NCBI GenBank assembly: GCA_019448385.1
Contig: JAGTXO010000014.1
Location: forward strand, 682,001-746,000
Source of the DNA: Diacronema lutheri
Lineage: Eukaryota; Haptophyta; Pavlovophyceae; Pavlovales; Pavlovaceae
Reading direction: 5' to 3'
DNA length: 64,000 nucleotides
The translations under genes and the position numbers were made by a program. The notes beneath the pieces are model-generated. The model saw only the letters and a list, made by a program, of their open reading frames with translations, had not been told where the DNA came from and searched no databases. Position 1 is the first letter of the stretch. Every line of letters starts with the position of its first letter. Of this stretch, positions 1 through 42,087 are shown piece after piece.

Positions 1-3000
1 TGCGTCTACACTGCGCCTGATGAGGGCGACGCGGACGCGCGCGTGTACGACGCCAAGGACCCCGAGCAGCTAAAAGCGGGCAGGGCGCGGCCACGGGCGA
101 ACAGCGGGCGCGCGCCCGCCGTGGTCGACACGCTTTTCGCGCACGCGACGGGCACGATCGTCACGCGGCAGCGCACGGAGGGCGTGACCGGCGCGGGCAT
201 GCACCACCTCGCCGCCCCGACGCAGGGCGCGGGGTACGGTACCGTCGTGCGGGCCGAGCTGGGCGAGCCCGGCTTCGCGGGGACGACATGGCACATGACG
301 TCGGGCGTGGAGAACCAGCCGCGCGCGGTACGAGCGGCCGCGCGCGCGTACGCGCACGACGGCTGGGGCGGCGTGTACAATGCGCACGAGGACTTTGCCG
401 CCTTCGAGGGCTTGCCGCGGCTCGCCGCGCCCGAATCGCTCGCGGCCATCGCCGGCGGGTCGGCGGACGCGGTGTTCTGCTGGCGGTCCGGCCGGTCCGT
501 CATCGGCGAGGTGACGACGGTTCACTTCAATGGCGACCGCGCCGCCGCCATCGACCACGCGCGGGCGCTGCGCGTCAGGCCCGATTGGCGCTCGCAGCCC
601 AGGATCTACGAGGCGGCGTGCGGCGCGGAGGGCACGGTGCTGCTCGTGTGGGTCGTGCCCGACCGTCACAAGAACCCGCGGCTGGACTGGGCGCCGATTC
701 TCGTCGTGATCCACCTGCCCGCCGACCCCGACTGGCTCGCGCGCGCCACGCCGGCGATCGCGAAGGCGCGGCGCGAGGTCGAGGACGGACGCGCGCGCGC
801 GGAGGCGCGCGGCGTGCCGCAGCACCTCGCCTACACGCTGAGCCCACGCTTCCGAGGCACCGCGCCGCGCGGAGCCGCGCGCGTGCCGCCGCGCCTCGGC
901 GCGAGCGACGCGCGCGAGGCGCGCGCGCTCGCGGCGCTCGAGCCGGCGCTCATGTTCGCGCCGGCCTGGCGGCGCGCGGTGCGCGCGGCGAGCCGCGCCC
1001 CCGGCAGTGGCGCCGCGGCCGTCGAGCGCGCGCTCGCGCGCCTGCACAACGCGCTCGAGCCCGATGACGAGAGCGCGCCCGAGTCGACGCGCGTCGCGCC
1101 GCTCGCCGCCGCGCTCGAGCAGTCGGCGGGCTGGCCGGCGGGCACGGCGCGCATGGCGGCGAGCGTGACCAAGGGCCCCGGCGTCGGAGATGGCGCAGGT
1201 GGCGACGAAGTGACCAAAGTGGAGGAAACGGCGAAGACGAGCGGCGACGGCTGCACCGGCACGCCTCCTCTGCGCCCGGCCGCGCGCGCGGCCGGCGCGG
1301 CGGACGACGGAGGGGCGGCGGTCGTGGCGGGCGTCGAGGGCGAGCGCGACGCACTCGCCAAGACGGGTGCCGGCGGCTGCGACGACGACGCTCGCGAGCC
1401 GCTGTCGGCCGGCAAGCCCGGCGCACTCGCCGCCGCGGCGACCGTCGGGGGTCTCGGCGAGCTCGTCGGCAGCCTATGCGCGTGGCTGGCGCGCGGCGCG
1501 GCTGGCGGCGCCATCGCGGCCACCTCCCCCGGGACGGCCGCGCGCGGAGCAAACGGCACGCCGCAGCGCGCCGAGCCGCCGGCCGCCGGCGATCCCGTCG
1601 CTCCGCACGCGCGCGTCGCCGCTGCGGCGCCCTTGGCGGGCAGCGCGGCGGCGCCGTCGTCGGCCGCGCGCGACGCGCAGCGCGGCGTCGCGGGAGTCGA
1701 CGCGGCCGCGCACGCGCACGCGCGCGACGGCAGGCGGGCGGCACGGCGGATGCGCGAGCAGGAGGGGGCGGTGCACAGGGCCTTCCGCATGTCCCTCTGG
1801 CGCGACGCGACGTTTGTCGAGTTCGTTGAGAAGCTGCGCCCCGACGGCGGCGCGCAGCTGCTCGCGCGCGAGCCCACGCGGCGCGCGGCGGCGGTGCTGT
1901 GCGAGCTCGCGCGCGGCCGCGACGGCGCGAGCGGCGCGGCCGGGCTGCTGCACGAGATGAGAGCCGCCGATGCGCGCGCGCGCGAGGCCGCCAAAGCGGC
2001 GGAGGCAGCGCAGCTTGCGCACGGGACGCTGCGCATCGTGGCAACCGTGGCGCTGGGCGGTGCGGTCTTCGCCGGCATGTCAGCGCTGGTCGTTGCTTGC
2101 GCGGCGCGCACGGCGACCGGTGCGCTTTTTGGGGCCCGCCGCCCGCGGGCGGCCGCGCGCGGAGCCGACGACGCGCTCGGCACGCTGCAGCGCGCCGAGC
2201 CGCCGCCCGCCGACAAGGGCAAGCGCAGGCGCGCCAGAGCCAACGACGACCCCGTCGACGCGGCGCGCAAGGCCGTGGGCAAGGCGGAGGGCAACTGCCG
2301 CAAGGCAGCCCGCCGGCTGCACCTCGCTGCACTGGGCGAGGAGGAGGCGCAGCAGCGCGTGCTCGACGCCGAGGCGGCGGAGCAGCTGGCGCGCTCGCGC
2401 GAGCCGGCCGGCGGCTGGGTAGGCAGCGCGCGCGCGCGCGCGCGCGCGCGCCCCGCCGCGCGCGCGCCCGTCGATTGGCGTGCGCGCAGCGCAGAACGGC
2501 GCGCCAGCTCCGTCACCTGCGCGCCGCCGCGCCCGTGCCCCTCGCGCGCAGGGGCGCCCTGCGGACCTGCGGCTGCAACAGGCGCACTTTGGCATGCGCG
2601 AAGATGCCGACGCGGAAGTGCGCCGCGCGCACGAGGCGCTGCGCCGGGCGAGACAGGGTGTGGCGTGCGCCAAGGCCAGCGTGCGGCAGATGGAGGCGGC
2701 GTTGCTCAACGCGACGCGCTGCGCCACCGCGGTGCTCGCGCCGCGTGGCGTGCCGGAGGGTGACGAGCAGGCCGCGGCGAGAGAGCAGGCGGCGCTGGAC
2801 CGGGAGGCGCCGCCGGCCGCGCAACGCGCGGCGCCGACGGCGCGCTCGCCCTCGGAGCCGCCGTCCGAGTGGGGCCCGCCAGCGGTCGGCCGGCGCCCGA
2901 CGCCGCGTGCACTGTCGCACGCCGCGGGGCGCGGGGACGACAACCCGTTTGCGCCGCTCGCAACCGTCAGCGGCGATTGGTCGCCCACGCCGAGCTCGCG

Positions 3001-6000
3001 CCCGCCGTCCTCGCCGCCGCGGCAGCCGCCGTCCGACCGCCGCAGCGCGCAGCGTCGCAGCGCGCGCGCGCGGCCGCCGAGGCCGACCGTTTCGCCCGAG
3101 GACGCGCTCGCAGCCGAGCGCCAGGCGCGCGCGCTGTCGGAGCAGGCGGAGCGGAGGCGCGCCAAAAAGGCCGCCGCCAAGGCCGCGCGCCGCGCCGCGC
3201 GCGCCGCCGACAAGCGGACGGCGCGCGTCGTCCACGCGTGCGTAAGCGCCGCCTTGCGGCGCGTCTGCACGAGCGTCGCCACGGGCACGCCGCTCGCCGT
3301 GCTCCGCGAGCGCGCCGAGGGGCCGCGCGCGCCGAAGGCGGCGCCCGCGCCGCCACGCCGCGCAGCGGACGGCGGCCGCGCGCTCCGCCACGCGCGCCGT
3401 GCGGCCGCCGCGGCGGCGGAGCGCGAGGCGGCGGTGGCGGCCGACGCCGACGAGCGGTTCGAGCGGCAGCCCTCCGCCGCCCGGTTCGACGGCGGCGATG
3501 GCGGCGGAGGCGGCCACGTCGAGGCGAGCGCGCGACCGCGCGCCGGCGAGGCCGGCGAGGCTGGCGCGCACGGCGCGCCTGGCGCAGCGGGGACCCCGGC
3601 GGCGTCGCTCGCGTCGCGCAGCCCGTGTGATGCGCGCCGCACGGCACGCCTCCCGCACGCACGCGCCGCAGCCACCTGCGCACGCAACGGCGGCTGGGGT
3701 GGCAACGTCGGCGGCGACGTGTGCGGCGATTGTTTCGGCGGCGGCGGCGTCCGTCGCGACGCCTGCGGCGGCGGCGACGCCACCTGCGGCTGCGGCGATG
3801 GCGGCGTCGGTGCTGGCGCTGGCGAGGCCCCTGCACACGGTGCGCCGGCGCGCGCGACGGCGTCGCGCTTGCTGCGCTTGCTCGGCGCGCCACGCGCCGT
3901 GCTCGGTGCGATGGCGCACGCCGCGGCCGTGTTGGCGCGCGGCGTGGCCGCAGCCGTCGCTGGCGTGCGCGCCGCCGCGCGCGCCGTGCGGCGCGCGCGC
4001 CGCCGAGCGCCTCGCGCGCGCCGCACGGCTGCGCGGCGGGCTCGCGGCCCGCCGATGCGCGACGTCGACGGCGCCCTGCGGCCCTCGCCGTCCTGGTTGC
4101 GCACACGCCTCGTCTGCGGCCGGCGCCTCGCGCCTCTGCGCCGCGCGGGCGCGCGCCCGCCGCCCGCACACGCCGCGCCGAGTTCCCGCGCGCGCGCTGC
4201 GCAACCCGACAGCGACGCGCCGGCGTGCGCGCCGCGGCGCTCGGCGCCTGTCGGTGCGCCGCCGCGCGCGCGTGGCCTGCGCGCGGCGCGCGCACGGCGC
4301 TTCCTCGACGTCGCCGGCCGCGCGGCGCGGAGCGCGCGCCTCGGCGCGCGCATCACGCGCCAGCGCACGCCGGGTTCGCCATCGGAGCCCTGCACGGCCG
4401 AGAGCGGCGACGGCGCGGGCGCCGGCGGCGTCGGCGCGGCGGCGCCTGGCGCGGCGACGATGCGCGCCACCGGCGCGCGCGCAGCGCGCGCTGCGGCGGC
4501 GGCGGTCGGTGGCGCCTCGCGTCTCGCGCGCCGCGCGATGGCAAGCGCCGCCGCCGCTGCCACCTCCATCGCCGGCGCTGCCGCCTCGACCGTCGCCGCC
4601 GCCGCCGTTGCCATCGGCGCGGCCGTCACGTCACCGGCGTTCGCCGCGGCGCGCGGCATGGCGGCCGCATGCGTCGCTGCCTGCGCCCGCCCCACCGCCG
4701 CGCAGGCGGCCGCGTCGCGCGCGCTCGGCGCGCTCTTCGTGCTCGTCGACGCGGCCGACGCGGCGGGCGACAGCGACGCCGCGCTCGGCGCGCTCGCGGC
4801 CGCGGTCGACGCGACGGAGCTGCGCCCGCCGCCGGCCTTTTGGCGCGCGGGCCGCGCCGCGGCGTACGCACCGCGTCCGCCGCCCCTCGACTCGGCGCGG
4901 CCGCGCTACAACCGGCGCGCGCGCGCACCTAGCCCTCCCGTCGCGGCCGCGCGGCGCAATCTCGCGCGCGCGGTGCGCGAGCTCACGCGCGCCGCGCGCG
5001 CTGAGCGCGAGCGCGCGCCGGCGCCGCGCGGCGCGCGCGGCGGCGTGCTCCACGCGCTGCGCGCGTCGCTCCCCGTGCACGCGCGTGCCGCGCTCGGCAC
5101 GGACGCGGAGCTGCGCGCGGACATCGCCGCGTTCGCGCGCGCGCGCCGCGAGCTGCACAGCCTCACCGACGCCGAGGTGGCGGCGCTCGCGCGCCCGGAC
5201 GGGCCGCCGCTGCCCGTGCGGCTCGCGTGCACGGCGGTCGCGCGCGCGCGCGGCGTGACCGTGCTGCTCGACATCGTGCCGCGCGGCGGCGGCGCGCCCG
5301 AGCGGCTCGTGTGCCGCGCCCGTCGCCGCGGCGCCGCCACGCGCACGCCACGGCCGACAGCCGCCGTTATCGCGCGCGCGCCTTGCATAGCGGCGCGCGT
5401 TGGCCACACTGAGCCGGCGCGCGCGTGCGCGGGCGGATCGATCGGGGTCGCGCGCCTCCGTTCAGCGCGCCGCCGCTCTTGGCGTGGGGCGCGGCTCGAC
5501 GTGCACACCCGCGAGCGGCTGGCCACACCGGTGCCAGGCCACGTCGTGGCCTGCGCCGCCGCCTCGGCCATCGGCGCGTGCGTCGCTCGCGCGCGGCTTG
5601 GGCTTGCACGGCTGGCGCGCGCGTGGCCCTGCGCCTCCGCTCCACTGGCCACTGCTGCTGTCGCCTTCGCGCCTGCCGCCGACGGTGTTTTCTGCGCCCC
5701 GCTGGGCGCTCCTGCATCCGCCTTCGCGCCTGCCGCCGACGGTGTTTTCCCCGCCGCACTAGCCGCTGCTGCATCCGCCTTCGCGCCTGCCGCCGATTTT
5801 CCCGCCCCACTAGTTGCTCCTGCACTCGCCTCCGCGCCAGCCACCGACGGCGTTTTCCCCGCCCCGCTAGCCGCTGCCGCTGTCGCGTCCGCGCCTGCCG
5901 CCGCGGGCGTGTCCTCCGCCCCACCAGCCATCGCCGCCGCGCCCGCCGCCAACGTGCGCACCGCCAACGTGCCCGTTGCCAACGAGGCTACCGCCACCGA

Positions 6001-6999
6001 ACCAGCCGCCCTTGAGCTTCCCCTCCAACCCGCCAACTCGGCGCTGCTTGCGTGGGCGGGCGACGCGGCTGCGCGCCGGCTGGCCTCCGCCGCCGCGAGC
6101 GCCGGCCTCCCGCAGGCAGAGGTGGAGCGCATCGCCAGCGGCGACATGCTCGCCTCAACCGTCGACGCGTGCTGCGAGGTCGTGCTACGCGTGCACGGGC
6201 AGGCCGGCGGCGGGCATGTCTGCCACGTGCCGCTCGCCGCGCAACCCGCGGTGTTCCAGGACGGCGCCGAGCGCGCCGCGCTGCTGCACCGCCTGCGCAG
6301 CGAGGCGACGACGCAGGCTGTCATCGGCGTGTGGAGCCCGTCGGACGAGCGCGGCGGCGCGGGCGGTGACGACGGCGCGCAGCTCGCCTCCGGCCATTTC
6401 ACCGCGTTGCGCCTTGTGCGCGTCGCGCGCGCGGGCGAGCGTCGCTACGACGCGGTGCTCGTCGACACGCTCGCGTCGCCCTGCAGGCGGGCGCTCGTGC
6501 TCGCCACGGCGATAACTGCCACGCTGCACGCGGCGGGTCTCGACATTTCGCGCGTGCGCCGCGCGCGGCTGCTCGACGAGGCGGCGCAGCGTGGCGCGAC
6601 GTGCGGCCTCGCGATAGTGGGCGCGCTCAACGACGCGCTCGCCGCGGCGGGCTGCTCGTCCGCGCCGCGCACGTTCAGCGTGGCGGACATGTACGCTGTC
6701 GGCGAGCGCCTCCGCGTCGCGCTGACCGGCGCGGCCAGCGATCGTGCGCCGGGCGGCGTCTGCGCGGGCACGAGCGCGGTGCGTGGCGGGGGCAGCCCCG
6801 ATCGCGCCGAAGCGCCGCCGCAGACGCGCGTCGCCAAGGCCGCCGCTGGCGTCACCGCCGCCGCCACCGCCGCCGCCACGCCGCCGCCGCCCGCGCTGGG
6901 CGCCGCCGCCGCCGCCACCGCCGCCGCCGCCGCTGCTGCCGCCGCCGTGGCCGCGCCGTCACCGCCGCCACCGCCGCCGCCGGCCGGCGACGCGGGCGA

Positions 7000-7086
<87 letters not shown>

Positions 7087-10000
7087 GCGCACGTTCTTGA
7101 GGCTCGCGCCCAGGGCGCGCGCGGCCGCCTCGGCGCGTGAGGCGTTGCGCGCCGCGTGTGCGCGCGCGGACGCGGCGGCGTCGTCACACGCGTCGGCGCC
7201 GCACGCGCCCGCCGGTGCGCGCCGCCGGCGGCGCGCGGGCGCAGGCGAGCTGGCGCTCGCGGCTGCGCGCGCGCTCGCCTCGACGGAGCACGGCGATTTG
7301 ACGGACGACGCGCTCGAGGCCGCCATCGAGCAGGAGCTGGGCGACGAGCGCGGCCAACTGCTGCTGTGCACGCGGGGCGCAGCGGCGCAAAGGCCCGCGC
7401 TTTGCCGGCTCCTGAAGCACGCGTGCGCGTCGGCGCGCGCGGCGAAGCGCGCGCAATTCACGGTGTTCGTCGTGCGCGCGCCCACGCGCGGCGAGCGGGG
7501 GGGCGCCGCCGCGACGCGCGTGGACTCGGTGGTCGAGCTGTCGTGCGCGCTGCACGAGAAGGCGGGCGCGCTCGGCGGCCTCCAGAGCGTCTGTGTGCGT
7601 GGCTTTGCCCTCGAGCGCCGCCGGACACTCGACGGTGGCGCCGAGGCCGGCGCGTCCGCCATCGGCCAGGACGAGCAGGTCGAGGCAGAGGCGGGCGAGG
7701 CGTGCGTCGCCGGCGTGACGATGGCCAAGCAGCTGCGTCAGTTTGCCGAGCAAGCTGCCCGCGACGACGTGCTCTTCCGCGTCGCCGTGTCCGAGGCCGA
7801 CGCCCACGCCCGGCTGGCGCGCGTTGCGGGTGACGATGTCGGCGCGTACAGCGTCGTGCTCGCAGTCGCCGGGCTCGTCTGGCTGGCCAAGGCCGACGAG
7901 GTTGCGCCGGCGGCCGCCCAGTCCGCCGCCGCGCCGCCCGCCGCCCCGCCTGCTGCCGCCACGTCCGCCGACGCCGAGCGCGACGCCTCGCCTTCCGACC
8001 GCCTGCGCGCGCTGACGCTCGCCGTGCGAGTCGCGCTCGCGCGCGGCGTGCTGCGCCACCTCCTCGCCGACGCGTCGCCGGGCGCGTCCGCGACCGCTGG
8101 CGGTAGTTGCGCGACGCCCGTCGAGGCGGCCGCGTCCGACGCCGCGCCGCCCGCCACGGGCGTCGTGACGAGTGGCGTCGCGGCGGGCGCTGTGGCGGCC
8201 GCACCGGCTGCTGCGGGCGGTGCGACGGCGGGTGCATCGCCCATCGCGCGGCCGGCGAAGCGCGCGCGGCGCACGCTCACCGCCGCTCCAGCCGCCTCGG
8301 CCGTTGCGGCCGCTGGAGGCGCACGCGCTGGCGCACGCGGCGCGGCCGGCGCGCCTCGCGCGCGCGCCGCGCGCGCGCCGGCCGAGTACGTCTGGCTTGC
8401 CATCGCGCGCCGGATGCTGGCGGCGCGACACGCGGCGGCCGCGGGCGGCGACTTTGTCGCGTCGTGCGTCGCCGCGATGCAGGCCGAGTACGGCGACGGC
8501 TGTGCCGTCGTCGTCGGCGACGCGCCTGGTGACGCCTTGGTCGAGGCTGCGGCGGCGGCGCTGCTCGAGGGCAAGCACGCGGCGGTGAGCCTCGGCTGCG
8601 TCGACCGGCCGGCGGTGCTCGTCGTGCAGCGCGCCGTGGATGCGCCCACGTCGCGCGTGCACGGGTGGTGCGCGCACGCGGCGGGCGCCGCCGAGTTTGA
8701 CGAGGGCGCCGCGCGCGACGTGTTCAACGCGATCGTCGAGCGCGCGTGGGCGCTGCGTCCGGACCCGGCCGACGGCAGCCCGCCGCCCACGCGCACGTGG
8801 GAGGTCGGGCGCATCGCTGGCGACGCGCCCGACCAGGCGGGCGTGGCCGCGCTGCGCGTGCTCTACGCGCTCGTCGCGGCGCACGGCCGCTACCGCTCGG
8901 CCGCCGCGCTCTTTGGCGCGCTCGCGCAGCTGCACGCGCCCGACGCCGCCGGCGCGCGCGCGGAGGTCGTCGCGGCGGCGTGCGCGGTGCCGCCCGGCGC
9001 GCGGCCGGGCGCCGCGCCGGCGGCCGCGCGGGACGACGCGAGGGAGCGCGCATGGGAGGGCGCTCAGATCGCCGCGCTCGCCGTCGGCGCGGACGCTGCG
9101 CGCAGGCGTGTCGCGCCCGTGCGCGCGCTCGTCGACGCGCTCGGCACGCCACCGACCTCGGCGATCACGGGCGGGCCGGCGGTCCGGCTCGCGGGCGCGG
9201 GCGACGGCGGCCACGGTGTACGGTGGGTGGGCGAGCAGGCGGCGACGCCCGCCGAGCAGCTGCCGAGGGAGCTGCTGCGCGCCTACCACGAGGCGGTGCT
9301 GTGCGTCACGCCCGGCAGCCTCCAGCTCGGCCCGGCGGCGCTCGACGCGGTCACGCGGCCGCGCGAAAACGACACGCTGGAAGGCCTCCTCGCGCGCGTC
9401 AGCTGGCAGTGCGGCGCGAGGGCGAGCACGTGCGCCATGCTCGCCACGTTTTCCGAGCAGGCGGGCACCGGCTCGCGCGTCGCGCTCAAGGCCCTCCGCA
9501 CGAGCTCCGACCTGGCCGGGCTGACGGCGGCTGCGGTCGGGCAGCAGGCGCCGCAGACGCCGCCGCCGCCGCTGCTCGTAATGCTCGGCCGCTGCCCCAG
9601 CCCGCTCGTCGGCGGCGGCCTCTTCCCGCCCGACCGCGCGACGGGCGAGCCGGCGGTGCACGCGGCGACGTCCGAGCTCGCCGTCGAGCTGCTGCGCGAC
9701 GCGCGCGCGCTGGCCGGCACGGACGGGCGGCTCGTCGTGCTGTGCCTCGAGGCGTCCAACCCGCTCTGGTTCTGCCCCAAGGTGCGCGAGCTCGAGCTGC
9801 CGCGGACGCGGTCGGACGGCGTGCGCGCGTCCGGCTGCACCTGCCCTGCGACGTGCAGCGATGCGCGCGGCGCGGCGGGTGGCGCTGCCCGCGGCGCATC
9901 GACGCGGCCGGCGGCGCGCGCGATCAACAAGGCGGTGCTCGACCACTTCGTCGCGCTTTTCGGCCGCGAGGGCTTCGCGACCTTTGAGTTTGCGGGCGGC

Positions 10001-13000
10001 GGCGAGGCGAGCTGGCTGTGCGACAGCGCGGCCGGCACGACGACCGTCGCGGCGTGCGCGTCGCTGCCGCCGCGCATGGGCGATGGGCAGCTGGCCATCC
10101 GGCGGCACACGCTCGGCACGGGCGCCGACGCGCCGGCGCACGCCGTCGTCTCGCTCCGCGTCGCGCACGTGAGCCACGCCATCCGCCGCGCGGCGGACGA
10201 CGGCGGCGCGCGCGCCGAGCGGATGGCGCGCGCCGCGCGCGCGTTCTGCGATGTGGCGGCCGCGCTGCGCGTCGACGCGATCCTGGCGGAGGTGCCCGAG
10301 GACCGCCCGACGGGCACGCCCTTCCTTGGCGGGCTGCTCAAATTTTGGGACAAACGCAACGGGAGCTGGACGGCGCCAGCCACGCTCGCGCTCGGAGACG
10401 TGCGCGAGGTGGCCAAGCGGACGGCCGACGCAGCGGCCGGCCGAGCGGACGAGGTCCCTGCGGCTGGCCGTCCGCAGGTCGCGGCGCGCGCGTGCGCTGG
10501 CGCGATTGGCGGCGGCGCGGGCGCGGCGGGCGCCTCGGACGCTGCGCCCCGTGCACTGGCGGGCGCGTCGGGTGCGCGCACGGACGGCGGCCCTGCCGAC
10601 GCACCGCGCCAGCTGGAGAGCCGCTACGGCGAGGCGAGCAAGCTCGACCTACCCCAACATTCCACTACGGGCTGCGTCCTCGACGCTCGCGAGGCCCAGG
10701 ACCGCGCGCGCGTGCCTGCTGCGCCCGACGGCACAGCGCTGCGCCGCGTGCTCGACGCCGTCGGCGCGGGCGCGCCCGCGCAGCGCAGCCCGCGCTGGCA
10801 CGACGAGCGATGGGAGGAGGTCACGGGCAGCAAGGTTGGCGACGTCGTGAACGACAACGCCGGCGTCGCGCACGAGACGCTCACCGACGAGTACGTGCAC
10901 CGGCGGCGGCGCGAGGTGCGGACCAAGGCGACGACCGCGGGCATCCTCGGCGAGGCCGTCGCGCTGCGCAAGCTGGCGGCCGCGTACGGCATCACCGTCG
11001 TGTGCAACCTGCCGATGGTGCGTGCGGACCCGCACGACAAGAGCGCGCCGTTCGCCTTCTCGCCGGACGGGCTCGCCATCCTCCCCGAAAACAACGAGCA
11101 GGTCCTCGTCGAGGTGAAGACGCTCACCAAGGCGGGCGCCACGGCGCACGAGGACGGGCCGCCGCAGCCGCACCGCGATCAGCTGCAGCTCGGCATGCAC
11201 GTCCTCGGCGTGAGCAAAGCGCTCTACGTGCAGTACCTCAGGCACGAGGACCGGATCGTCGTGCACGTCGTGACGCGCGGCGCCGGCTGGCTTGCATTCG
11301 CGCAGCCGAGGGTGCAGGCCTTCTGGGCGCGCGTCGTCGAGCGGCGCGCGCGGCTCGAGCGCGCGCGCGCCGACCACCCGGCTGCGAGCCGGCGGCACCG
11401 GCGGCAGCAGACGCCGGCCGGGCCGCCGCTCGTGCTCGCGCTGGACGGGCGCATCCCCGCCGCGCGCGCCGCCGCGCTGCACGCCGTCGCGCACGGCACC
11501 GCGAGCGCGGCGGCGGTGACGGCGGCGGCGGCGACGGGCGACGCGACGGCGTTGCAAGACGCGATCGCGGCGCTGCGCGCGCCCGTCGGCAATGCGGCGA
11601 TCGACAGCGCAGCGCGTGCGGAGGGCGCGGCCGTCGAGCGGGCGATCGCGTACCTCGGGCAGCCGGCGGGCGACGCCGCCGCCCGCGGCACGGCCGAGGC
11701 GGCCGAGGAGGAGAGGACGGTCGACGCCGACATCTGCGCGTTGCTGCACCAGCTCGGCGCGAGCGTGGCGCACGTGCACGTCGAGGACGCGGATTGCGTC
11801 ACGCGTGAGCACTGGGGCGAGGCGGTGCTCGCTGCAGCGGACGACCCGTCGAGCGCCCCCGCCATTTCGAGCGTCATCGTCGCGCACATCGTGCGCCTCG
11901 CCGGCTTTGGCGTCGAGCTCCCGCAGTCGATTCGCGTCGCCCCCAGCACGGCCGACTGGCACGAGGGCTGGCTCGACGTGCAGTGCGTGCTGCTGCGCAC
12001 GCGCCGGCGCGGGCGGCGCGACGACGACTTTGTGGCCGTCGTCAGGCGCGGTGGGCGCTGGTTTGCGTGCGAGCCCGGCCGCGCGCGGCGGCTGCAGTGG
12101 CGGTCGGTCCTACGCCGCGCGCGCGGCGGCGTCGACGGGACCGGCGAGGAGGCGTTCGCGATCGTCTACGTGCGGCGCGGCGACGCGGCCGGCGACGCGG
12201 CTGGCGACGCGCAGGCCGCACGGGCGCGCGGCGGGCGCGCGCGCAGGCGCACGCGCGGCGGCACGCGCAAGCGCAAGCGCGGCGCCTCCGCCGGGCTCGA
12301 GGCGGCCGCGCCCGCCGGCGCGCCGGCTGCCGCGCCCGCCGGCGCGCCGGCGGGCGCTGCTCACCGCCCGCCCGCCATGCGCGCCACGGTCGCCGCGCGC
12401 ACCACGCGCTCTGTGACCGACGCGCTGCACTCGGCGCCTGCCGCCACGGTTGCACCTGTCTTCGACTGGCGCGCCGGCCGCCCGCCCCCCGCCGCTCGAG
12501 CCCGCCACCCGCGGCCGCGTGGGCGCGCGCCACCGGGCAAGGCCTGGGACAGCGTCTCGGGTGCGTGGGCGGACAAGCCGACTGGTGCTGCCGTCGCCGC
12601 CGCGCCGCCGCCGCTGCCGCCCGCCGCCGCGCCGCCGCCCACCGCCGCGCCGCCGCCCGCCGCCGCGCCGCCGCCCGCCGTCGCGCCGCCGCCCGCCGCC
12701 GCGCCGCCGCCGCCGCCGCCACCGGCGGCGCTCGGCCGCCGGCAGCACGTCGGCGCGGGCGGCAGCGCGGCGGGCCGGCGGCTCGCGGCCATCGCACGGC
12801 GGCAGCGCGGCGTGCGCGCGCCGCCGCCCGCCGCGCGCTTCCTCGCCACGCTGCCGCCACCGCCACGCGACGGCCTCGCGCGCACGAGCAAGCAGGCGCG
12901 CGCGAGGCGCAACGCGGACGGACGGCCGGCGCACGCGCGCGCGGCCAACGCGCGCGCCTTCTACCGCGGCGTGGAGCTCGGCGTGCACGCGACGCGCGCC

Positions 13001-16000
13001 ATCGTCGACGCGCGCCACGCCGACCTGCCGCAGGCCGTCTTCGTGGCGGAGGCGCGGGCGATCGTCGCGCGCTCCGCCGGCGGCGGCGCGCTGCTCGCGC
13101 CGGACGACGTGCGCGACCTGTGCGACGCGCAGACGGACGCCGATCGCGCTGCGATCTGGGCGTCGGTGGGCGCGCACGAGGCGACGCGCATCTTCGCGCT
13201 CGTCACGCGCAACGCGAGCTTGGCGGGCGCGGCGCTGCTCGTGCTGCACACGCCGGCGGGCGCGCCGGCGCGCGCGCTCGGGCTCCTGGCGACGCGCTCG
13301 CGCGCGCCGTCGACGGGCGCGCCGCGCGACGCGCACAGGGCGCTGGTGCAGCGGTTGGACGTGCTGATGGACGCGATCGCCGCGGCGCGAGGCGCGTCGC
13401 CGCTCGAGCTCGAGCTCGCGCTCGCGCCCGAGCCGCAGAGCGCGTGCAACGCGCGTGCGGCCGCGCTGCTCTGCCTGCAGGCCGTCGCGGACGCGAGCGG
13501 CCGTCCCGCCGCTGAGGACGCGCTGGCCGCGCTCGACGACGCGCGCGGCATCGACCGGCACTGCCACGCCGTCCGGCAGCAGATCGAGGCGAAGCTCGCG
13601 TGGCGGCGCGCCGACGGCGCCGTCGGCGTTGACGGCGCCGACGGCGCGCCCGCGCTCGCGCCTGCCGCCGCACCGCCGGCGTGCGCGCCGGCGCACGCTG
13701 CCGGCGAGGCGGCGGTCGACCAGGCGATCGTCACGCGGGTGCGCGACGCGCTGCGCGCGTGGGCGACGACTGGCACCGCGCCCAGCGCGGCGGTGCTCGA
13801 CGACGCCTGCGCCGCGTACACGGCCCGCGCACGCGCGCGCAAGGACGCGCGCACGGCGCTGGGCCCGACGCGCGCGGCCGAGCTGCTCGCCGCGGCCGCG
13901 CGCGGCGGAGCCGACGGGGCGGATGCCGCGCGCGCGCTGCTCGGCGGCACGCCGCGCCTGCTCGTCGTGCTCCTCTGCGTGCCCGTCGCCGCGCCGTCCG
14001 GCGAGCCGCCGCGCCCGGTCGGGCTGCTCGTCGCCGACCGGCCGACGGACGACTCGCGCCCGGCCGCGCTCGTGCGCTACGACTTTGCGCCGCTCGACGC
14101 GGACGTGGCCGTCGCGGTCGGCGCGCATGCCGTCGCGCTGGCCAGTGCGATCTGGCCGCTGCTCGCGGCCGAGGGGGAGCCGCGGCCATCGCCCGTCGTG
14201 CGCTCGCAGCCGCGCGGCGGCGACGATGGCGCGCGTGCGCTCGCAACGTTCGCGTGCCTCGACGCGCTGATGACCGCCAGCGTCGGCGCGCACGGCCTCG
14301 CGGGCGGCGCGGGCATGCTGCCCGCGCTGGTCGCGCGAGGCGCCGCGGCCGCCCAGCGCGAGCGGCAGCTGCGCGCGGCCGCCGAGAGGCTGGGCGGCAC
14401 GGTCGCTGGGTGGCCGGACACGGGCGCGAGCGCGGCGGGCGCGAGCGTCGACGAGGAGGCGCGCACGTACGAGGTCGAGGCGGTCGTCGACGAGCGCCGC
14501 AAGGCGGGCAAGAAGGTGACGTTCCAGTTCCGGATCAGGTGGCGGGGCTACGACGAGAGCGCCGACACGTGGGAGCCTGAGGCCAACGTGAGCAGCGACC
14601 TCGTCGCCCACTTCCGCAAGACGCGCGACGAGCAGAAGCGGCGCGCGGGCGTATCGGGCAGCGGCAGCGGCGGCGCGGGCGCGGCGTCGGCATTGGCGTC
14701 GGCGCCGCTTCGCGCGCACGGCGAGTCGGGCGCCGCGGGCAAGCGCGCCGCGGCGGGTGCCGCCGCGAGCGCGCGCGACGCCGCGGGCGCGCGCGCGCCG
14801 AGCGTTCCCCGCGCGCGCGGCGTCGAGCGCGCGCGCGTGGACGAGCCCGCTGCGCCGAGCGCGCGCGCCGCCGGCGGCGCGACGGCGCGCACGCGCGTCA
14901 GCGTGCTCCCGGGCTTCGTGGTCAAGCGCTCGACGCTCAACGCGGGGCCGCAGGCGGTGACGGCGCAGCCCGGTGCGCGGAAGGAGCTGCGGCGCATCGC
15001 GGCGGCCGTGCACAGGCTCACGACACAGGCGTACCGCGTCATCAACAAGGTGGTGCGCGACGAGGCTGCGGTGGCGAGCGCGCAGGCCGTCGGCGCGGCG
15101 TCGGGCGGCCCGTCGACCAGCGTGCACACGTCGACCACGATGGACAAGGGAACCGTCCGTGCGATCTTCTCGGCCATCGGCTGGCACAAGGACGAGAGCA
15201 CGTACGGTGCAGCGCCCCGAGGCAAGCCCGCCGAGCAAGCCGCCGCGCAGACCAAGGCGGCGACGGCGCGCGCCGTCGGCGAGATGGCCGAGGGCGTCCA
15301 GCCCGTCTGCGCGGTGGGCCTCACGGAGATCCTCGAGGCGGAGGCGACGCAGGTGTCCACCGCGTGCCTGATGCATCCATCGCGCGTCGTGAACGGGCTG
15401 CTCCGCGACGTCGTCCGCGCGGCAGTCGAGCGCGACGAGGCGCTCGTCGCGCTGCCCGAGATGCAGCGAAACGCGCGCGTGCGCGAGCTGTGCGAGCGGC
15501 TGCTGCGCGGCGACGTGGAGGGCGCGCGCGTCGGCTGCCCCGCCGCGCTCGACCGCCACCTGCCCGACATGGTCCTCCACAAGATCGACTACAAGTGCAC
15601 GCCCACGAAAAGGTGGAACTACGACCGGCACACGACGCGCTACTTCCTCGTGCAGATCCGCACCCTGCAGCACGTGGCCGAGGGGCAGGCGCTGCTCTGC
15701 CGGCTCGCGCACATCCACACGCAGCTGACCGGACGGCCGCCGCGGTACAATGTGGCGCCGCTGCGCACGCACAATGTGCGCGCGAGGCGTGGCTGCCGCT
15801 GCCGCCGCCGAGCGCCCAAGCGCGCGCGCCGCCGCCGTGCGCGCCGCCCCGCGGCCAGGTTGGTCACGCGCCCGCGCGCTCGCGCGCCGCGCGCTGCGCG
15901 CAGGTGCCGCGCAACGTGCGCCTCGCCGCGAGCGCCATCTGGGTGACGCTTTCGGATGACGAGCGCAAGGAGCTGCGCGCGCGGCTCAAGGCGCTGGACC

Positions 16001-17628
16001 TGCGCGACCACGATGGCGAGCCGATCAAGTGGACAGGCACAAACGGCAACACCCCGCCGATGTCGGACGTGCGCGTCAGGTACGCGGTCTTTGCGACGCG
16101 CTTCGACATCTCCAACCGCGTCTTCGACTACGCCGGGCGCGAGCGGCCGCCGGCCGATCTGCCGTGGCACGCGCGGCGCTCGTGGGTTGGCCTCGCGCCG
16201 CTGCCGCGCGTGCCGCTCCCGGGCCGGCAGCCCGTCAAGTCGGTGGTGACAGATGGCGTCGCCGTGCACGCCGTCGGGACCGTCCTCGTGCCGAAGGCGC
16301 AGGCGCCGGCCGGCGGCTCGGGCGTCCTGCACCGCTGGCGCCGGCCGGACGGGCGCATCGCCGTCGCGCTCGGCTCCGAGCTGCGGCGGGCGATCGACGT
16401 CGAGGCGGCGGTCGTCGTCGCGGCCGACCCGAACATGGGCAACATCACCACCTACTCTGCGCACGTCGGGCGGGCGGCCGTCTGGCGGCAGTTCACGCAG
16501 CGCGCGCGCGCGCGCGCCGCGGGCTTTGCGCGCGAGACGGCCAAGACCAACGCGGCGCGGCGGCGCGTGCGCACCGACGGGCGCGGCGAGGAGTTCAGCG
16601 TGGAGGCGGACGAGGCGCGGCTTGGCGAGGCGCACAGCGCCAAGGTGCTCGACGCGGGCAAATACATCGCCTTCCACCGCGAGAGCGCGCGGGTGCGCGA
16701 GCGCGCCGCCGAGCACGTGTACGACGCGCCGGCGCGCCGGAAGGAGCGCTGGCGGCGCGACAGCGGCGGGCGGTCCAACGCGGCGCGCGTCGCCGAGGCG
16801 CTCATCGCGGCGCACTGTGTCGACGGCGTGACGCGCGACCGGCTGCTCGTGTGCGTGGGCAAGTGGCTGCGCGACCACAAGGGCGCGCAGCCCAAGGGCG
16901 CGCCGCCCGCCTTCCAGGTGGGGCTGCTGCGCGAGCTGCGGCGGCGCGGCGTCGCGGCCGTCTTCGTGCCCGAGCCGTACACGTCGATGCACTGCTCGAT
17001 GCCGCGGCTCGCCAAGGGCGGCAGGCTGCAGCGCTGCGGCGCGGAGCTCGCGCAGAACCCGCGCCTGCCCGTGGCAAAGGGCGGCACGCGCACGGTGCAC
17101 GCGCTCGTCATCTGCCCGGCGTGCAACGGCGGCAAGAAGCCCGTGCACCGCGACTACAACGCCGCGCGCAACATCTTCTACGACGTGCACGACATGGCGG
17201 CGCACGCGGCCGGGCGCGACACCACGTCGACGCCTGAGCGCTTTGCCCTCGTGCTCGCCTGGTGGGCGCGCGGCGAGGTGTGGGAGCGTGAGGAGCGCAT
17301 GGTGCACGGCGAGGGCGACGACTGCGACGACGAGTGCGACGGCGACGACGAGGGCGACGACGAGGGCGACGACGACGACGACGACGATGGCAGCGGCGAC
17401 GGCGGCGGCGGCGAGGGCGACGGCGACGGCGACGGCGACGGAGGCGGCGGCGGCGACGACGACGATGACGGCGGGGGAGGCGGCGGCGGCGACGGCGGTG
17501 GCGACGACGGCGGCGGGCGCGGCGGCGGTGGCGGCGGCGGCTCTCGCGCCCGCACCCCCGCCCGCGGAGCTGCCAGCGCCAGTGCCGGCGGCGGCAGCGC
17601 GCGCGGGCCGAAGCGCGGCCGGCGTTGA
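1..17628 (+). CDS. Giant multidomain protein ending in a chromodomain and Fanzor nuclease (5' partial)
   Basis: The frame is open from base 1, so the true start lies upstream. Two introns are inferred: 2419-2551 (GTAGGC...CAG) and 15776-15903 (GTGCGC...CAG). The joined product is at least 5,788 aa. In order it shows an uncharacterised N-terminus with a hydrophobic segment near 2030-2130, Ala/Arg-rich low complexity, a Ulp1-like protease (about 6240-6640), a poly-Ala tract, several protease-like degenerate modules, a YqaJ-type nuclease (about 10790-11345), Pro/Ala linkers, a chromodomain (14467-14642) and a Fanzor domain ending in an acidic Asp/Gly-rich tail. This domain mix suggests the coding part of a large mobile element. 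Stop codons are rare at this GC content, so an unbroken frame does not prove a single protein; it could be two or more genes run together. Coding frames look real because recognisable domains fall in the same frame or join in phase through the introns. Confidence 0.6.
6240..6640 (+). other. Ulp1/C48-like cysteine protease domain within the giant protein
   Basis: The stretch reads SGHFTALRLV, then VLVDTL, then QRGATCGLAIV. The candidate triad is His at 6395-6397, Asp at 6464-6466 and Cys at 6602-6604, with an oxyanion-type Gln five residues before the Cys. Order and spacing (H to D 23 residues, D to C 46) resemble Ulp1/adenain-type SUMO or viral-type proteases, where the order is His-Asp-Gln-Cys with a CG pair. 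Function is inferred: it could process the polyprotein or act on ubiquitin-like proteins. Later parts of the same protein repeat the module in weakened form without a full triad. Confidence 0.6.
7001..7086 (+). repeat. (GCC)n microsatellite coding poly-alanine
   Basis: About 28 uninterrupted GCC triplets, in frame as poly-Ala between the Ulp1-like domain and the next module. Imperfect GCC/CCG runs flank it from about 6840. Likely a flexible, length-variable linker. Confidence 0.95.
10790..11345 (+). other. YqaJ/lambda-exonuclease-like nuclease domain within the giant protein
   Basis: The segment begins near RSPRWHDERWEEVTGSKVGD and contains GILGEAVALRKLA, then FAFSPDGLAI, LVEVKTLTK and RDQLQLGMHVLG. 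These are the hallmarks of the YqaJ viral recombinase family: a conserved Glu in the helix after the SKVGD-like turn, the Asp of PDG, the Glu and Lys of ExK, and the QLQ motif. The family are 5'-3' exonucleases of recombination systems in phages, large DNA viruses and mobile elements. Here it sits upstream of the chromodomain and Fanzor in the same frame. Assignment is from motifs only. Confidence 0.7.
14467..14642 (+). other. Chromodomain immediately N-terminal to the Fanzor domain
   Basis: The sequence runs TYEVEAVVDERR, then FQFRIRWRGYDESADTWEPE, then DLVAHFRKTR. This is the chromodomain pattern: Y-x-V-E at the start, the V/I-x-W-x-G-Y core, TWEP, and a C-terminal helix. Aromatic cage positions (Tyr, Trp, Trp/Tyr) appear present, so methyl-lysine binding is plausible. 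Chromodomains fused to integrases direct chromoviruses to heterochromatin, and a similar targeting role is inferred. About 250 nt of Ser/Ala/Arg-rich linker separate it from the Fanzor part. Confidence 0.85.
14900..17628 (+). other. Fanzor (eukaryotic TnpB-like) RuvC nuclease domain
   Basis: Exons are up to 15775 and 15904-17628. The N-terminal part includes helical sequence (LRRIAAAVHRLTTQAYRVI) and a conserved WNYDRHTTRYFLVQI block. The RuvC core is recognisable: Asp in AADPNMGN (codon 16426-16428), Glu in VFVPEPYTS (16972-16974) and Asp in VHRDYNAARNIF (17152-17154). Between the last two is a zinc-ribbon with Cys codons at 16993, 17035, 17113 and 17122. TS-x-x-CS followed by a C-x-x-C and RDxNAAxNI is the TnpB/Fanzor signature. 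All three acidic residues and four cysteines are present, so it is probably catalytically intact. The end is a long Asp/Gly-rich acidic tail and a basic KRGRR terminus. A broken second copy lies at 40639-41979 on the other strand. Confidence 0.85.
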
Positions 17629-17880
17629 CGCACGGCCGAGCCGCGCAGCGGTCGACGCTTTGCGGGCTCTGCCCAGGTCGCGCGCGGCTGGCGACGCGTG
17701 CCGCGCGCGGCACGACCGTGCACGCCGCCACCCGTGGCCGAGCGCGCCGCACCAGCCGGCCCGCTCCAACCGCCGTGCGGATCACGGACGCTCGCTACGG
17801 CTCGTCGGCGCGCGTCACCTGCGCCGGCGGCCACGGCGCCGTCTGCTCCGGCCTCGTCGCGAGCAGCCCGACCGCTGCTC
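17629..17880 (+). ncRNA. Candidate Fanzor guide-RNA (fRNA) region or element 3' end
   Basis: The block directly after the Fanzor stop is conserved in the second copy (40639-40880, -). The last about 105 nt compared are about 92% identical, with changes spread over all codon positions. Homology stops abruptly at GAGCAGC (17861-17867), the left arm of a perfect 7-bp inverted repeat with GCTGCTC at 17874-17880. In TnpB and Fanzor systems the guide RNA overlaps or follows the 3' end of the nuclease gene and its guide is taken from sequence beyond the element end. That role here is inference. Confidence 0.3.
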
Positions 17881-18111
17881 GCCGCCCGCACGCCGCCGCA
17901 GCAACGCTGCGCGTCGTGCTCCCCCGCTCGCCAAACGCGAAGAGCTCCCTCACAAGGACGTCCTTCCGAACGGCCCGCGCTGCACTCGGGGCGCGATCGT
18001 GCCCCTGATCGGATTTGGCTTGACCATCTATACGTAGTTCTTTGTTTTATTTTATTTTTCCTGATTTCGGCCTGATGTTGCGTGCGCCCTTTCGCTCGCT
18101 CCGTTTGTCCA

Positions 18112-18160
18112 GCCTCGGCCCCGTGCGCGCCCCTCCTGCTGACCCGCCTGTAAGCGTCGT
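18112..18160 (+). repeat. 49-nt dispersed repeat, copy 1
   Basis: Nearly identical to 39626-39673 in the same orientation (one substitution and one single-base indel). It starts GCCTCGGCCCCGTG and ends in GCGTCGT. Both copies lie just upstream of a gene (18225 and 39782), and both are near a Fanzor copy. Confidence 0.85.
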
Positions 18161-18166
18161 TAGTAT
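18152..18166 (+). promoter_or_regulatory. AAGCGTCGTTAGTAT motif upstream of the 18225 gene
   Basis: The same 15-mer occurs, on the coding strand of the downstream gene, at 29544-29558 (-), with one mismatch at 61769-61783 (+), and in partial form at 39728-39737 (+). Here it is 58 nt before the chosen ATG, followed by a T-rich stretch. A core promoter, start-site or 5'-UTR signal is possible. Confidence 0.4.
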
Positions 18167-18224
18167 ATTTTTTCCTTGGGAGAGGCCCAATGATGATGGA
18201 AGGAAAAAGGGAGTAGCCCGACCC

Positions 18225-33001: not shown

Positions 33002-34099
33002 ATGAGCCTCTCGCTGATCCTCGACAGGATGGCGAGCCGTGATAAGGACTTTCGGTACATGGCCACCTCCGACTTGCTCGTCGAGCTGCAGAAGGAAACA
33101 TTCAAGATGGATAGCGAGTCGGAGCGCAAGCTCTGCCAGATGAGCATCAAGCTGCTCTCCGATGCCGCGGGCGACGTGCAGGGGCTGGCGGTCAAGTGGT
33201 GCGCGCGCCGCGCGCGCGCGCACCGCGCGTCGGCCTCCGCCGCGGTGCGCGCTGTCGTCCGCCTCGCGATCCGCTCACTGGCACTACGACCACACTGCGC
33301 CCACGCCCGCGCGCGCGCGCGGCCGCGCGCGCGCGTGCGCCGGCGCGCAGCCTACCGCTGCTCGTGCGCAAGGTGCAGACGGCGCACGTGGAGGAGATGG
33401 TGGATCGGCTGTTTCAGATGGTGAAGACGGGCAAGGACGAGGAGCGCGACATCAGCTCGATCGGCCTCAAGACGGTGCTCGCAGAGGTGCCGCAGTCGGC
33501 CGCGGGCACGACGGTCAGGGGCCTCACGCCGCGCCTCCTTGACGGCATCTCGTCTACGTCGATGGAGGTGACGGTGTGCTGCCTGGAGATTCTGCACGAC
33601 GTACTGCAGCACTTTCCGTCGCTCGTCACCTCCGACCTTCCCGCCATCAAGGCCAAGCTTCTCCCGGAGCTCGCGTCGTCGCGCGCGGCGGTGCGAAAGC
33701 GCGCCGTCGCGTGCGTCGGTGCGCTCTGCGGCTCGCTGCCCGAGGGCCTGTACGCCGAGGTGGTGGATCACCTGCTTGCGCAGGTGGAGGCGGGTGCGGC
33801 GGGCGGTGCCAACGCCACGCTCACCGCCTACATCCAGGCCATCTGCGCGCTCGGCCGCGGCTCGGGTTTTCGGCTGGGTAGCCACGTCGCTCGAATCGTG
33901 CAACCGCTGCTGCGCTGCGCTGAGCGCTCAACCGCGCAGGGCGAGGCGGGCATGGAGGTGGCGGAGCACTGCCTGCAGGCGAGCGAGGCACTCGTCGCGC
34001 GCTGCCCTGACGAGATCGCTCCGTTCATCACGCAGCTCCTTGGCCTCGGGCTTGGGTACATCAAGTTCGACCCAAACTACGCCGACGACGACGACGCGG

Positions 34100-34136
<37 letters not shown>

Positions 34137-40638: not shown

Positions 40639-41979
40639 GCTGCTCGAGACGAGGCCAGAGCAGACGGCGCCGTGGCCGCCGACGCAGGTGATGCGCGCCG
40701 ACGAGCCGTAGTGTGCGTCCGTGATCCGAACGGCGGTTGAAGCCTTGAAGGCCGGCTGGCGCGGCGCGCTCGGCCGTGGGCGGCGGCGTGCAGGGTCGTG
40801 CCGCGCTCGGCACGCGTCGCCAGCCGCGCGCGACCTAGGCGGAGCCCGCATAGCGTCGCGGCTCGGCCGTGCGTCAACGCCGGCCGCGCTTCGCTCCGCG
40901 AGCGCTGCCGCCGCCAACAGTGGCGCCGGGAGCGCTGCGGGTGGGGGTGCGGGCGCGAGCCACACCGCCGCGCCCGCCTCCGCCGCCGTCGTCGCCACCG
41001 CCGTCGCAGCCGCCGCCGCCGCCGCCGCCGCCATCGTCGTCGCCGTCGCCCTCATCGTCGCCCTCGCCGTGCACCATGCGCACCTCGAGCTCCCATACCT
41101 CGCCGCAAGCCCACCAGGCGAGCACGAGGGCAAAGCGTTCAGGCGTCGACGTGGTGTCGCGCCGGGCCTTACCTTCCAGGTGGGGCTGCTGCGCGAGCTG
41201 CTGTGGTGTCGCGCGGCCGTCTTCGTGCCCGAACGGCTCGGGCACGAAGACGGCCGCGACGCCGCGCCACCGCAGCTCGCGCAGCAGCCCCACCTGGAAG
41301 GCGGGCGGCGCGCCCTTGGGCTGTGCGCCCTGGTGGTCGTGCAGTCACTTGCCCACGCACACGAGCAGCCGGTCGCGAGTCACGCCGTCGACGCAGTGCG
41401 CCGCGATGAGCGCCTCGGCGACGCGCGCCGCGTTGGACCGCCCGCCGCTGTCGCGCCGCCAGCGCTCCTTCCGGCGCGCCGGCGCGTCGTACACGTGCTC
41501 GGCGGCGCGCTCGCGCGCCTGCGCGCTCTCGCGGTGGAAGGCGAGGAACTCACCCTCGCCGAGCACCTTGGCGCTGTGCGCCTCGCCAAGCCGCGCCTCG
41601 TCCGCCTCCGCGCTGAACTCCTCGCCGCGCCCGACGGTGCGCACGCGCCGCTGCGCCGCGTTGGTCTTGGCCGTCTCGCGCGCAAAGCCCGCGGCGCGCG
41701 CGCGCGCGCGCTGCGTGAACTGCCGCCAGACGGCCGCCCGCTCGGCAGAGCGAGCCGGCAGAGCAGCGCCTGCCCCTCGGCCACGTGCTGCAGGTTGCTG
41801 ATCTGCACGAGGAAGTAGCGCGTCGTGTGCCGGTCGTAATTCCACCTGGGCGTGGGCGTGCACTTGCAGTCGATGCCGTGGAGGACCATGTCGGGCAGGT
41901 GGTGGTCGAGCGCGGCGGGGCAGCCGGCGCGCGCGCCCGCCACGTTGCCGCGCAGCAGCGGCTCACACAGCTCGCACAC
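40639..41979 (-). pseudogene. Broken second copy of the Fanzor gene
   Basis: Read on the minus strand it matches the first copy from about 15480: CELCEPLLRGNVAGARAG, then CTPTPRWNYDRHTTRYFLVQI. It lacks the stretch equivalent to about 15709-16470 (including the intron and the first RuvC Asp), then resumes at RAAVWRQFTQRARARAAGFA through to RDRLLVCVGK. After the second RuvC motif (VFVPEP) it turns into an inverted copy of itself and resumes at RDTTSTPERFALVLAWW, so the zinc ribbon and third RuvC Asp are gone. The acidic tail and downstream block follow to 40639. Three lesions make it non-functional. It ends just 108 nt before the next gene. Confidence 0.85.
41174..41301. repeat. Fold-back inverted repeat inside the Fanzor relic
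   Basis: Two arms of about 60 bp (41174-41233 and about 41238-41301) are near-perfect reverse complements, centred on GTGCCCGAACGGCTCGGGCAC. Each arm corresponds to the Fanzor sequence for FQVGLLRELRRRGVAAVFVPE. The left arm carries extra substitutions. Confidence 0.9.
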
Positions 41980-42087
41980 GGTGCCGACGCCGACGCCGAC
42001 GCCGCGCCAGCGCCAGCGCCACCGCTGCCAGATCCGCCCGCGAGATCGCAAACGTGAGAACCGCTCGGGAGTGCATTCTTCGTTGGA

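Follow-up and report, generated by a model that had tools for sequence, protein, structure and literature searches.

Introduction

Eukaryotic transposons carry RNA-guided nucleases called Fanzors, for which the native role is described as unknown; where they occur with HUH transposases, a role in copying by cutting and repair has been suggested (both PMC10432273). A published pattern for TnpB and Fanzor proteins, D-X(125-275)-[TS][TS]-x-x-C4-X(5-50)-RD, is given in PMC3627910. Here we describe a locus of the haptophyte Diacronema lutheri, contained in a 64,000-nucleotide stretch (hereafter the window; assembly GCA_019448385.1, contig JAGTXO010000014.1, positions 682,001 to 746,000), where a chromodomain, a linker and a Fanzor-type nuclease probably form the end of one very long coding sequence carried by a 31-kb mobile element.

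Four described systems invite comparison. Fanzor1 and Fanzor2, including the Helitron-borne examples from Chlamydomonas (Bao and Jurka 2013, PMC3627910), share the motif (with a spacing of 184 residues here), a predicted intron in the gene, carriage by a mobile element and an N-terminus that cannot be aligned to TnpB. The present locus differs from them in its chromodomain, in its giant open frame with a RecE-like exonuclease and in the 31-kb length of the element. TnpB of IS200/IS605 (ISDra2; PDB 8bf8) can be aligned over the zinc ribbon and the end of RuvC (hhalign E 9.8e-5), whereas the N-terminal half cannot; moreover, TnpB is a bacterial protein of ~400 amino acids without a chromodomain. 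Chromovirus (Ty3/Gypsy) integrases carry a chromodomain, and are likewise DNA-cutting proteins of mobile elements with a chromodomain of the HP1 class. In contrast to these, the nuclease described here is of the TnpB/Fanzor type and has its chromodomain on the N-terminal side, and the element frames scanned matched neither a reverse transcriptase nor an integrase profile. The chromodomain is also described as an accessory domain in LTR polyproteins (PMC6338049). Finally, Helitrons (Helraiser, PDB 7lcc) share the closest helicase, subterminal palindromes and the lack of a terminal inverted repeat; unlike Helitrons, the 31-kb element has no recognised HUH Rep and its ends read CTATATA...CTATAC rather than TC...CTRR.

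Transposon-borne Fanzors and integrases with a chromodomain are thus each known, and the pairing of Fanzor and chromodomain in one protein appears to be new within the open-licence literature searched. No published chromodomain-Fanzor fusion was found there, Repbase lying outside the scope of that search. A preliminary description of the window had likewise known of no Fanzor with this architecture.

Results

A chromodomain and a Fanzor-type nuclease at one locus

The chromodomain is encoded at 14468–14620 on the plus strand (coordinates are those of the window unless a contig is named), where a Pfam profile search matched PF00385 with E 1.8e-11 and 44.2 bits against a cut-off of 25.1. Thirty-nine distinct PDB sequences matched it at E ≤ 1e-4, the nearest being CDY/CDYL and HP1 proteins (E 7e-10 to 1e-8). 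Alignment with the chromodomains of the CDY, CDYL and HP1 families predicted aromatic cage residues at the codons beginning at 14468 (Y), 14540 (W) and 14549 (Y), which we take to be the methyl-lysine cage, as in HP1. Among the references, CDY1 has F at the first of these positions and CBX5 has F at the last. All three predicted cage residues and the DTWEPE motif are intact, which suggests that the domain may read H3K9 methylation.

The RuvC nuclease part lies downstream at 15904–17313 on the plus strand and includes a target-nucleic-acid-binding (TNB) C4 zinc ribbon at 16936–17175. PF07282 matched the exon alone with E 2e-6 (28.3 bits against a cut-off of 26.3) and the whole open reading frame with E 4e-6. 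The three RuvC acids are placed at 16426 (RuvC-I, D), 16972 (RuvC-II, E) and 17152 (RuvC-III, D), and the sequence fits the published pattern with a spacing of 184 followed by TSMHC...C...CPAC-X8-RD. Across a six-frame translation of the window (126,734 residues), the [TS][TS]xxC4-RD core occurs in two open frames, one of which is the nuclease frame. Furthermore, a profile of four TnpB-family proteins aligned with the nuclease in hhalign over 66 C-terminal columns at a probability of 58%. Other comparisons were less informative: NCBIfam guided_TnpB scored the nuclease at 14.4 bits, far under its cut-off of 100, phmmer against Cas12f1 gave E 0.42, and the alignment-free AlphaFold model of the RuvC part (pLDDT 34.8) was too poor for use. 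By profile and motif, we class the nuclease as TnpB/Fanzor-type. The chromodomain and the Fanzor-type domain, with its RuvC acids and zinc-ribbon cysteines, were both named in the preliminary description, and the profile search that it proposed bore them out, PF00385 and PF07282 each scoring over cut-off.

A predicted intron joins the two reading frames

The preliminary description had begun its feature at 14467 and placed both domains in the same reading frame, with the chromodomain ~250 nt ahead of the Fanzor domain. That start cuts into a far larger open frame of 4507 amino acids, stop to stop, at 2423–15946 on the plus strand. Frame continuity held for the low-complexity Ala/Gly/Arg-rich linker (14621–14900), which contains neither a stop nor an ATG, and for the putative Fanzor N-terminal region at the end of exon 1 (14901–15775), which is coding by the codon model. 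It failed for the RuvC and zinc-ribbon part, which occupies a different frame (14581–17628) behind a predicted intron.

Coding periodicity, followed as GC content at third codon positions (GC3), runs through the 4507-residue frame to ~15775. In this frame GC3 is 90-96% over 12.8-15.5 kb, and the second frame takes over with 92-98% over 15.8-17.0 kb. The first-frame signal can be traced upstream to ~2.6 kb, weakly near 3.5-4.5 and 5.3-5.9 kb, and given these weak stretches a single protein across the whole frame is only a possibility. A codon model trained on 8500–14440 and applied in 150-nt windows was positive in the chromodomain frame (frame A) for every window starting at 14300–15700 and in the RuvC frame (frame B) for every window starting at 15800–17400, both frames being positive in the low-complexity tail past 17300. 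Codon usage thereby marks a single frame through chromodomain and linker and places the switch between ~15730 and ~15870.

The switch would be made by a phase 0 GT-AG intron of 128 nt at 15776–15903 on the plus strand, or of 83 nt with the alternative acceptor at 15858, also in phase 0. The predicted intron would join the chromodomain frame to the RuvC frame, its borders most likely running from GT 15776 to AG 15903 or 15858. Splicing in silico gives an open frame of 5026 amino acids. Frame A contains no ATG between 14315 and 15140, so a protein that includes 14621–15139 starts upstream of the chromodomain unless it is spliced otherwise.

Insertions and deletions were compared in 40 loci (L001-L040; 37 distinct copies including the window's own, with L001-L020 ending near 16135). 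After position 14400 five loci carry one, and the frame-breaking events of 1-2 nt, in three loci, all fall inside the predicted intron: L006 and L028 (and also L046 and L049) have 2 nt inserted after 15819, and L014 (the same copy as L057) has 1 nt inserted after 15822. The two events outside it measure 3 nt (at 16052) and 12 nt (at 17570). Unless the copies that carry them are simply broken, the insertions within the intron favour an acceptor past 15822 and disfavour a ribosomal frameshift.

Downstream of the RuvC part, a C-terminal tail (17314–17628, plus strand) is acidic and Asp/Gly-rich, then basic, and ends at the stop with GPKRGRR, which by eye resembles a nuclear localisation signal. 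The 3' non-coding end of the element (17629–18033, plus strand) is the place expected for an omega or guide RNA. At a mean depth of 35 copies, it shows no shared substitution and a single site of shared deletion. Rfam gave no match at gathering score over 13800–18200, with one sub-threshold snoRNA match on the opposite strand.

The architecture recurs in copies of a young family

Of the 91 nuclease copies scored, at least 83 have a chromodomain upstream. By position among the matches listed it was placed in 80, with exactly equal spacing in 76; direct reading found it in a further three (L031, L032 and L044). None of the 91 nuclease copies (the best of 425 candidates) has a stop in the matched 469 amino acids, and none of 150 scored chromodomain copies (the best of 251 candidates) has one in the matched 62.

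The 59 loci aligned are 98-100% identical and represent 55 distinct copies, on which variants were counted; four copies had been read twice (L003/L040, L013/L022, L016/L033 and L014/L057). Shared coding variants comprised 41 non-synonymous and 20 synonymous changes; a count of every possible change would stand at 2.6 to 1. The only stop among the aligned copies is in L049, a contig-start locus. A sister copy on contig C46, 98.4% identical over 901 bases, was too close for a conservation test. The family is young and recently amplified. The evidence of past coding function is the long-kept codon bias and not the agreement among copies.

A decayed relic of the same Fanzor was seen at 40639–41980 on the minus strand of the window. 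Its pieces are 83-96% identical to element positions 15478–15708, 16467–16978 and 17208–17867; part of the sequence is deleted, an in-frame stop can be seen by eye, and no match to the chromodomain occurs. It represents an older layer of the family.

The 31-kb element

The window's copy of the element measures 31,026 bp, of which the right-hand 18,033 bp (1–18033, plus strand) lie within the window; the left end is outside, at contig C85:669008, or window coordinate -12992. The right end at 18033 is sharp: sequence up to ...GACCATCTATAC is common to the window and 23 flank-showing loci, which then diverge. Comparison of three copies, the window's own and one each on C82 and C86, gave the left end as CTATATA[G/C]GGCGCGG. 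The genome searched (43,492,796 bases in 103 contigs) holds 194 exact right (3') ends and 198 left ends at no more than one mismatch, and the copy number is about 195. By rough estimate the family makes up around a tenth of the assembly. The published assembly of D. lutheri NIVA-4/92 is given as 43,502,671 bp in 103 contigs with 73.25% GC and repeats as 22.9% of the genome, in a report whose main text contains no word beginning 'transpos' (PMC8379373). The preliminary description had read the locus as a fusion; the single coding sequence stands, while the dependence on an intron, the position at the C-terminus of a giant frame and the 31-kb element with its ~195 copies had been missed.

Contigs C1-C50 account for 68 of the left ends listed. 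For 44 of these a right end of matching orientation is also listed (one right end being used twice), and in 18 of the 44 pairs the end-to-end distance is 30.97-31.06 kb. Only listed matches were used for pairing, and unpaired ends are not all truncations. Shorter classes of ~29.1-29.4, 26.2-26.9 and 21.4-21.6 kb were also seen; with their ends unchanged, these size classes point to subfamilies defined by fixed internal deletions. After CTATATA the next base is G in the 73 exact matches listed; of the one-mismatch matches, 125 in all, 27 are listed and 20 of these have C.

Palindromes lie near both ends of the element, and the word CTATA occurs at both. On the right, an 18-bp near-palindrome (GGGGCGCGATCGTGCCCC) at 17988–18005 of the plus strand, 28 nt before the end, is predicted to form a hairpin. 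No terminal inverted repeat of the element was found, the longest inverted word shared by the terminal 200 nt being 8 nt and lying more than 100 nt inside. In the part beyond the window, C85:671007-671893 is a ~900-bp block in which units of ~90-100 bp are repeated in direct and inverted orientation; the block was also seen in copies L067 and L070.

Many contig starts (among them C1, C5, C10, C12 and C26; L041-L054) fall at or nearly at the right end of the element. These are points where the assembly breaks at the border of a repeat, so copy numbers and ends there are uncertain. A telomeric location of the element, which so many contig ends at its right border might suggest, was considered and dropped: the TTAGGG arrays listed lie elsewhere, and these contigs apparently broke off where the repeat begins or ends.

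Among the other genes of the element is one for a PIF1 helicase, divided between two exons (Pfam E 1e-24 and 1.7e-15) and with a 2B domain at E 5.8e-11. Helraiser (PDB 7lcc) was the best PDB match of both exons (E 1.4e-7 and 5e-13), while the other 13 sequences listed for exon 2, mostly named PIF1 helicases, scored E 0.024 to 0.074. On these matches the helicase is classed as Helitron-type, nearer to Helraiser than to cellular PIF1. A YqaJ/lambda-exonuclease (RecE-like) domain at 10772–11347 on the plus strand matched PHROG 434 with E 6.4e-17, and gave sub-cut-off matches to NCBIfam TIGR03033 (E 2.2e-6) and Pfam YqaJ (E 0.0024). A ubiquitin-hydrolase-like segment matched UCH below cut-off (E 0.0076), and Ulp1-like cysteine-peptidase motifs were seen by eye at several places, no profile confirming them.

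Pfam scans of the element's frames, which over 2403–18033 of the plus strand took in the coding ones, found no transposase, integrase, reverse transcriptase or Rep, and no HUH pattern occurs in the coding frames. Helitron ends were judged as 5'-TC and CTRR-3' with a 3' hairpin (Helitron1) or as a pair of hairpins plus asymmetric inverted repeats 8 to 15 bp long (Helitron2). With no Rep recognised, the element was not filed as a Helitron despite its helicase and palindromes.

Insertion sites and neighbourhood

Of 20 element flanks, three were dropped beforehand as repetitive or low-complexity, and high-copy repeat matches were found in one of the 17 then searched. Dropping flanks in this way biases against finding repeats; as they stand, the flanks do not strongly suggest that the element inserts into repeats. 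No empty target site was found: the further places of flanks L031, L055 and L059 are occupied copies and the L033 flank is a repeat, so no target-site duplication could be read off them. By eye, the flanks of L030, L037 and C8:74000-74205 (L075) share another repeat, TTAGTATATAT... / ...ATATACTAACG, which looks like a second mobile element in or beside which these copies landed.

To the left of the window's copy, C85:667163-669043 (L063:163-2043) is an open frame with an AP2 domain (E 7.3e-9). Its final 36 nt overlap the left end of the element at 669008, the copy having inserted at the tail of the frame. To the right, host-type open frames at 33115–37090 on the plus strand, with CAND1-like repeats (E 3.3e-24), represent ordinary genes near the element.

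Discussion

We consider it probable that the locus encodes the C-terminal end of a giant open frame, itself probably a polyprotein, of an amplified 31-kb haptophyte element, in which chromodomain, linker and Fanzor-type nuclease follow one another, with a single short intron interrupting the nuclease gene. Chromodomain and nuclease being parts of the same coding sequence, the simplest interpretation is a fusion. The spliced mRNA would then join the chromodomain exon to the RuvC exon.

Several observations weigh against this account. The main weakness is the absence of relatives beyond this genome: none was found in the viral contigs, prokaryote genomes, phages and plasmids that the searches covered. 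A single weak phage match sits in a gene annotated as an HNH endonuclease and was rejected as a relative. The variants among copies give no clear sign of purifying selection, which together with the 98-100% identity means that agreement among copies says little about function. Within the nuclease, the RuvC-I assignment (D 16426) comes from the motif by itself, and no similarity to TnpB was detectable in 14901–15775, the putative N-terminal or WED-REC lobe, which is for this reason named from its position and continuity; its alignment-free model (pLDDT 45.3) was too poor for use. The 3' end at 17629–18033 folded no better than shuffled sequences (z -1.13) and so gave no guide-RNA signal. The intron borders are not unique, as 17 GT-AG pairs, and 112 GT/GC-AG pairs in total, would keep the frame; in the codon model four GC-AG pairs slightly outscore GT 15776/AG 15858, and more than four outscore AG 15903. 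Additionally, the contig-start loci L041-L059 carry scattered 1-nt indels, coding parts included; these look like unpolished sequence, and the loci were set aside in the indel test for that reason. Lastly, the peptidase-like segments elsewhere in the element may allow processing of a polyprotein.

This last point leads to the alternative that survives best, which we regard as possible and yet unlikely. Processing of the polyprotein, or internal initiation, would separate the domains, leaving the chromodomain with the upstream polyprotein and the nuclease on its own, so that the two would be fused in the coding sequence only. An upstream open frame thousands of residues long, the sub-cut-off UCH-like segment (E 0.0076) and the Ulp1-like motifs seen by eye are all consistent with this, as are the low-complexity linker between the domains and an in-frame ATG at 15140. 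Conversely, initiation at 15140 would forfeit ~80 residues of the preceding coding region, neither a stop nor a non-coding gap lies between chromodomain and nuclease, and the spacing is equal in 76 of the 80 copies placed.

The chromodomain might instead be a passenger, captured by chance, which no longer reads histones and has no part in targeting the nuclease. Mobile elements readily capture domains, the variants among copies are near neutral, and the flanks show no sign of strong repeat targeting (high-copy matches in one of 17 searched, three of 20 having been dropped beforehand). The intact state of the three predicted cage residues and of the DTWEPE motif argues the other way, as does the lack of a stop in 150 scored chromodomain copies, though the family is young. 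On balance we find this explanation doubtful.

A programmed ribosomal frameshift, rather than an intron, could also link exon 1 to the RuvC frame, given that the frame changes while the first frame stays open to 15946. The interval that separates the two coding stretches has little coding signal, GT and AG are available in phase 0, and the 2-nt (L006, L028, L046 and L049) and 1-nt (L014 = L057) insertions would break a frameshift, unless those copies are broken; a frameshift is therefore very improbable. An accidental match in the long open frames of DNA with 70-83% GC, where stop codons are rare and spurious long frames abound on both strands, is refuted for practical purposes by the profiles and codon model, as two independent curated profiles agree, the nuclease motif is complete and in the expected order, codon bias marks one frame only through chromodomain and linker, and the same architecture recurs in at least 83 copies.

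If the chromodomain and the nuclease do act as one protein, a likely mode of action can be proposed. From chromodomain biology, the chromodomain would concentrate the nuclease on methylated chromatin that holds silenced copies of the element, their alleles or their sites. From TnpB biology, the nuclease, guided by RNA from the right end of the element, might cut the empty allele or sister site. Repair of the break, which the exonuclease and helicase would process, could then restore the element to that site by copying. The step of insertion at a new site is not accounted for by any gene recognised in the element. A bolder version, in which the element has no transposase of known type and spreads by this route alone, a chromatin-addressed, RNA-guided break made by the chromodomain-Fanzor protein being processed by the RecE-like exonuclease and the Helitron-type helicase, recombination copying the element in, and histone marks and guide RNA jointly choosing the sites, is in our judgement improbable.

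A confirmed fusion to a histone-mark reader would provide direct evidence for a mobile element steering its nuclease by chromatin state. It would also offer a testable native function for a Fanzor and a natural model for chromatin-gated genome editors. With a cultured algal host and ~195 copies, insertion sites, guides and heterochromatin could be compared genome-wide.

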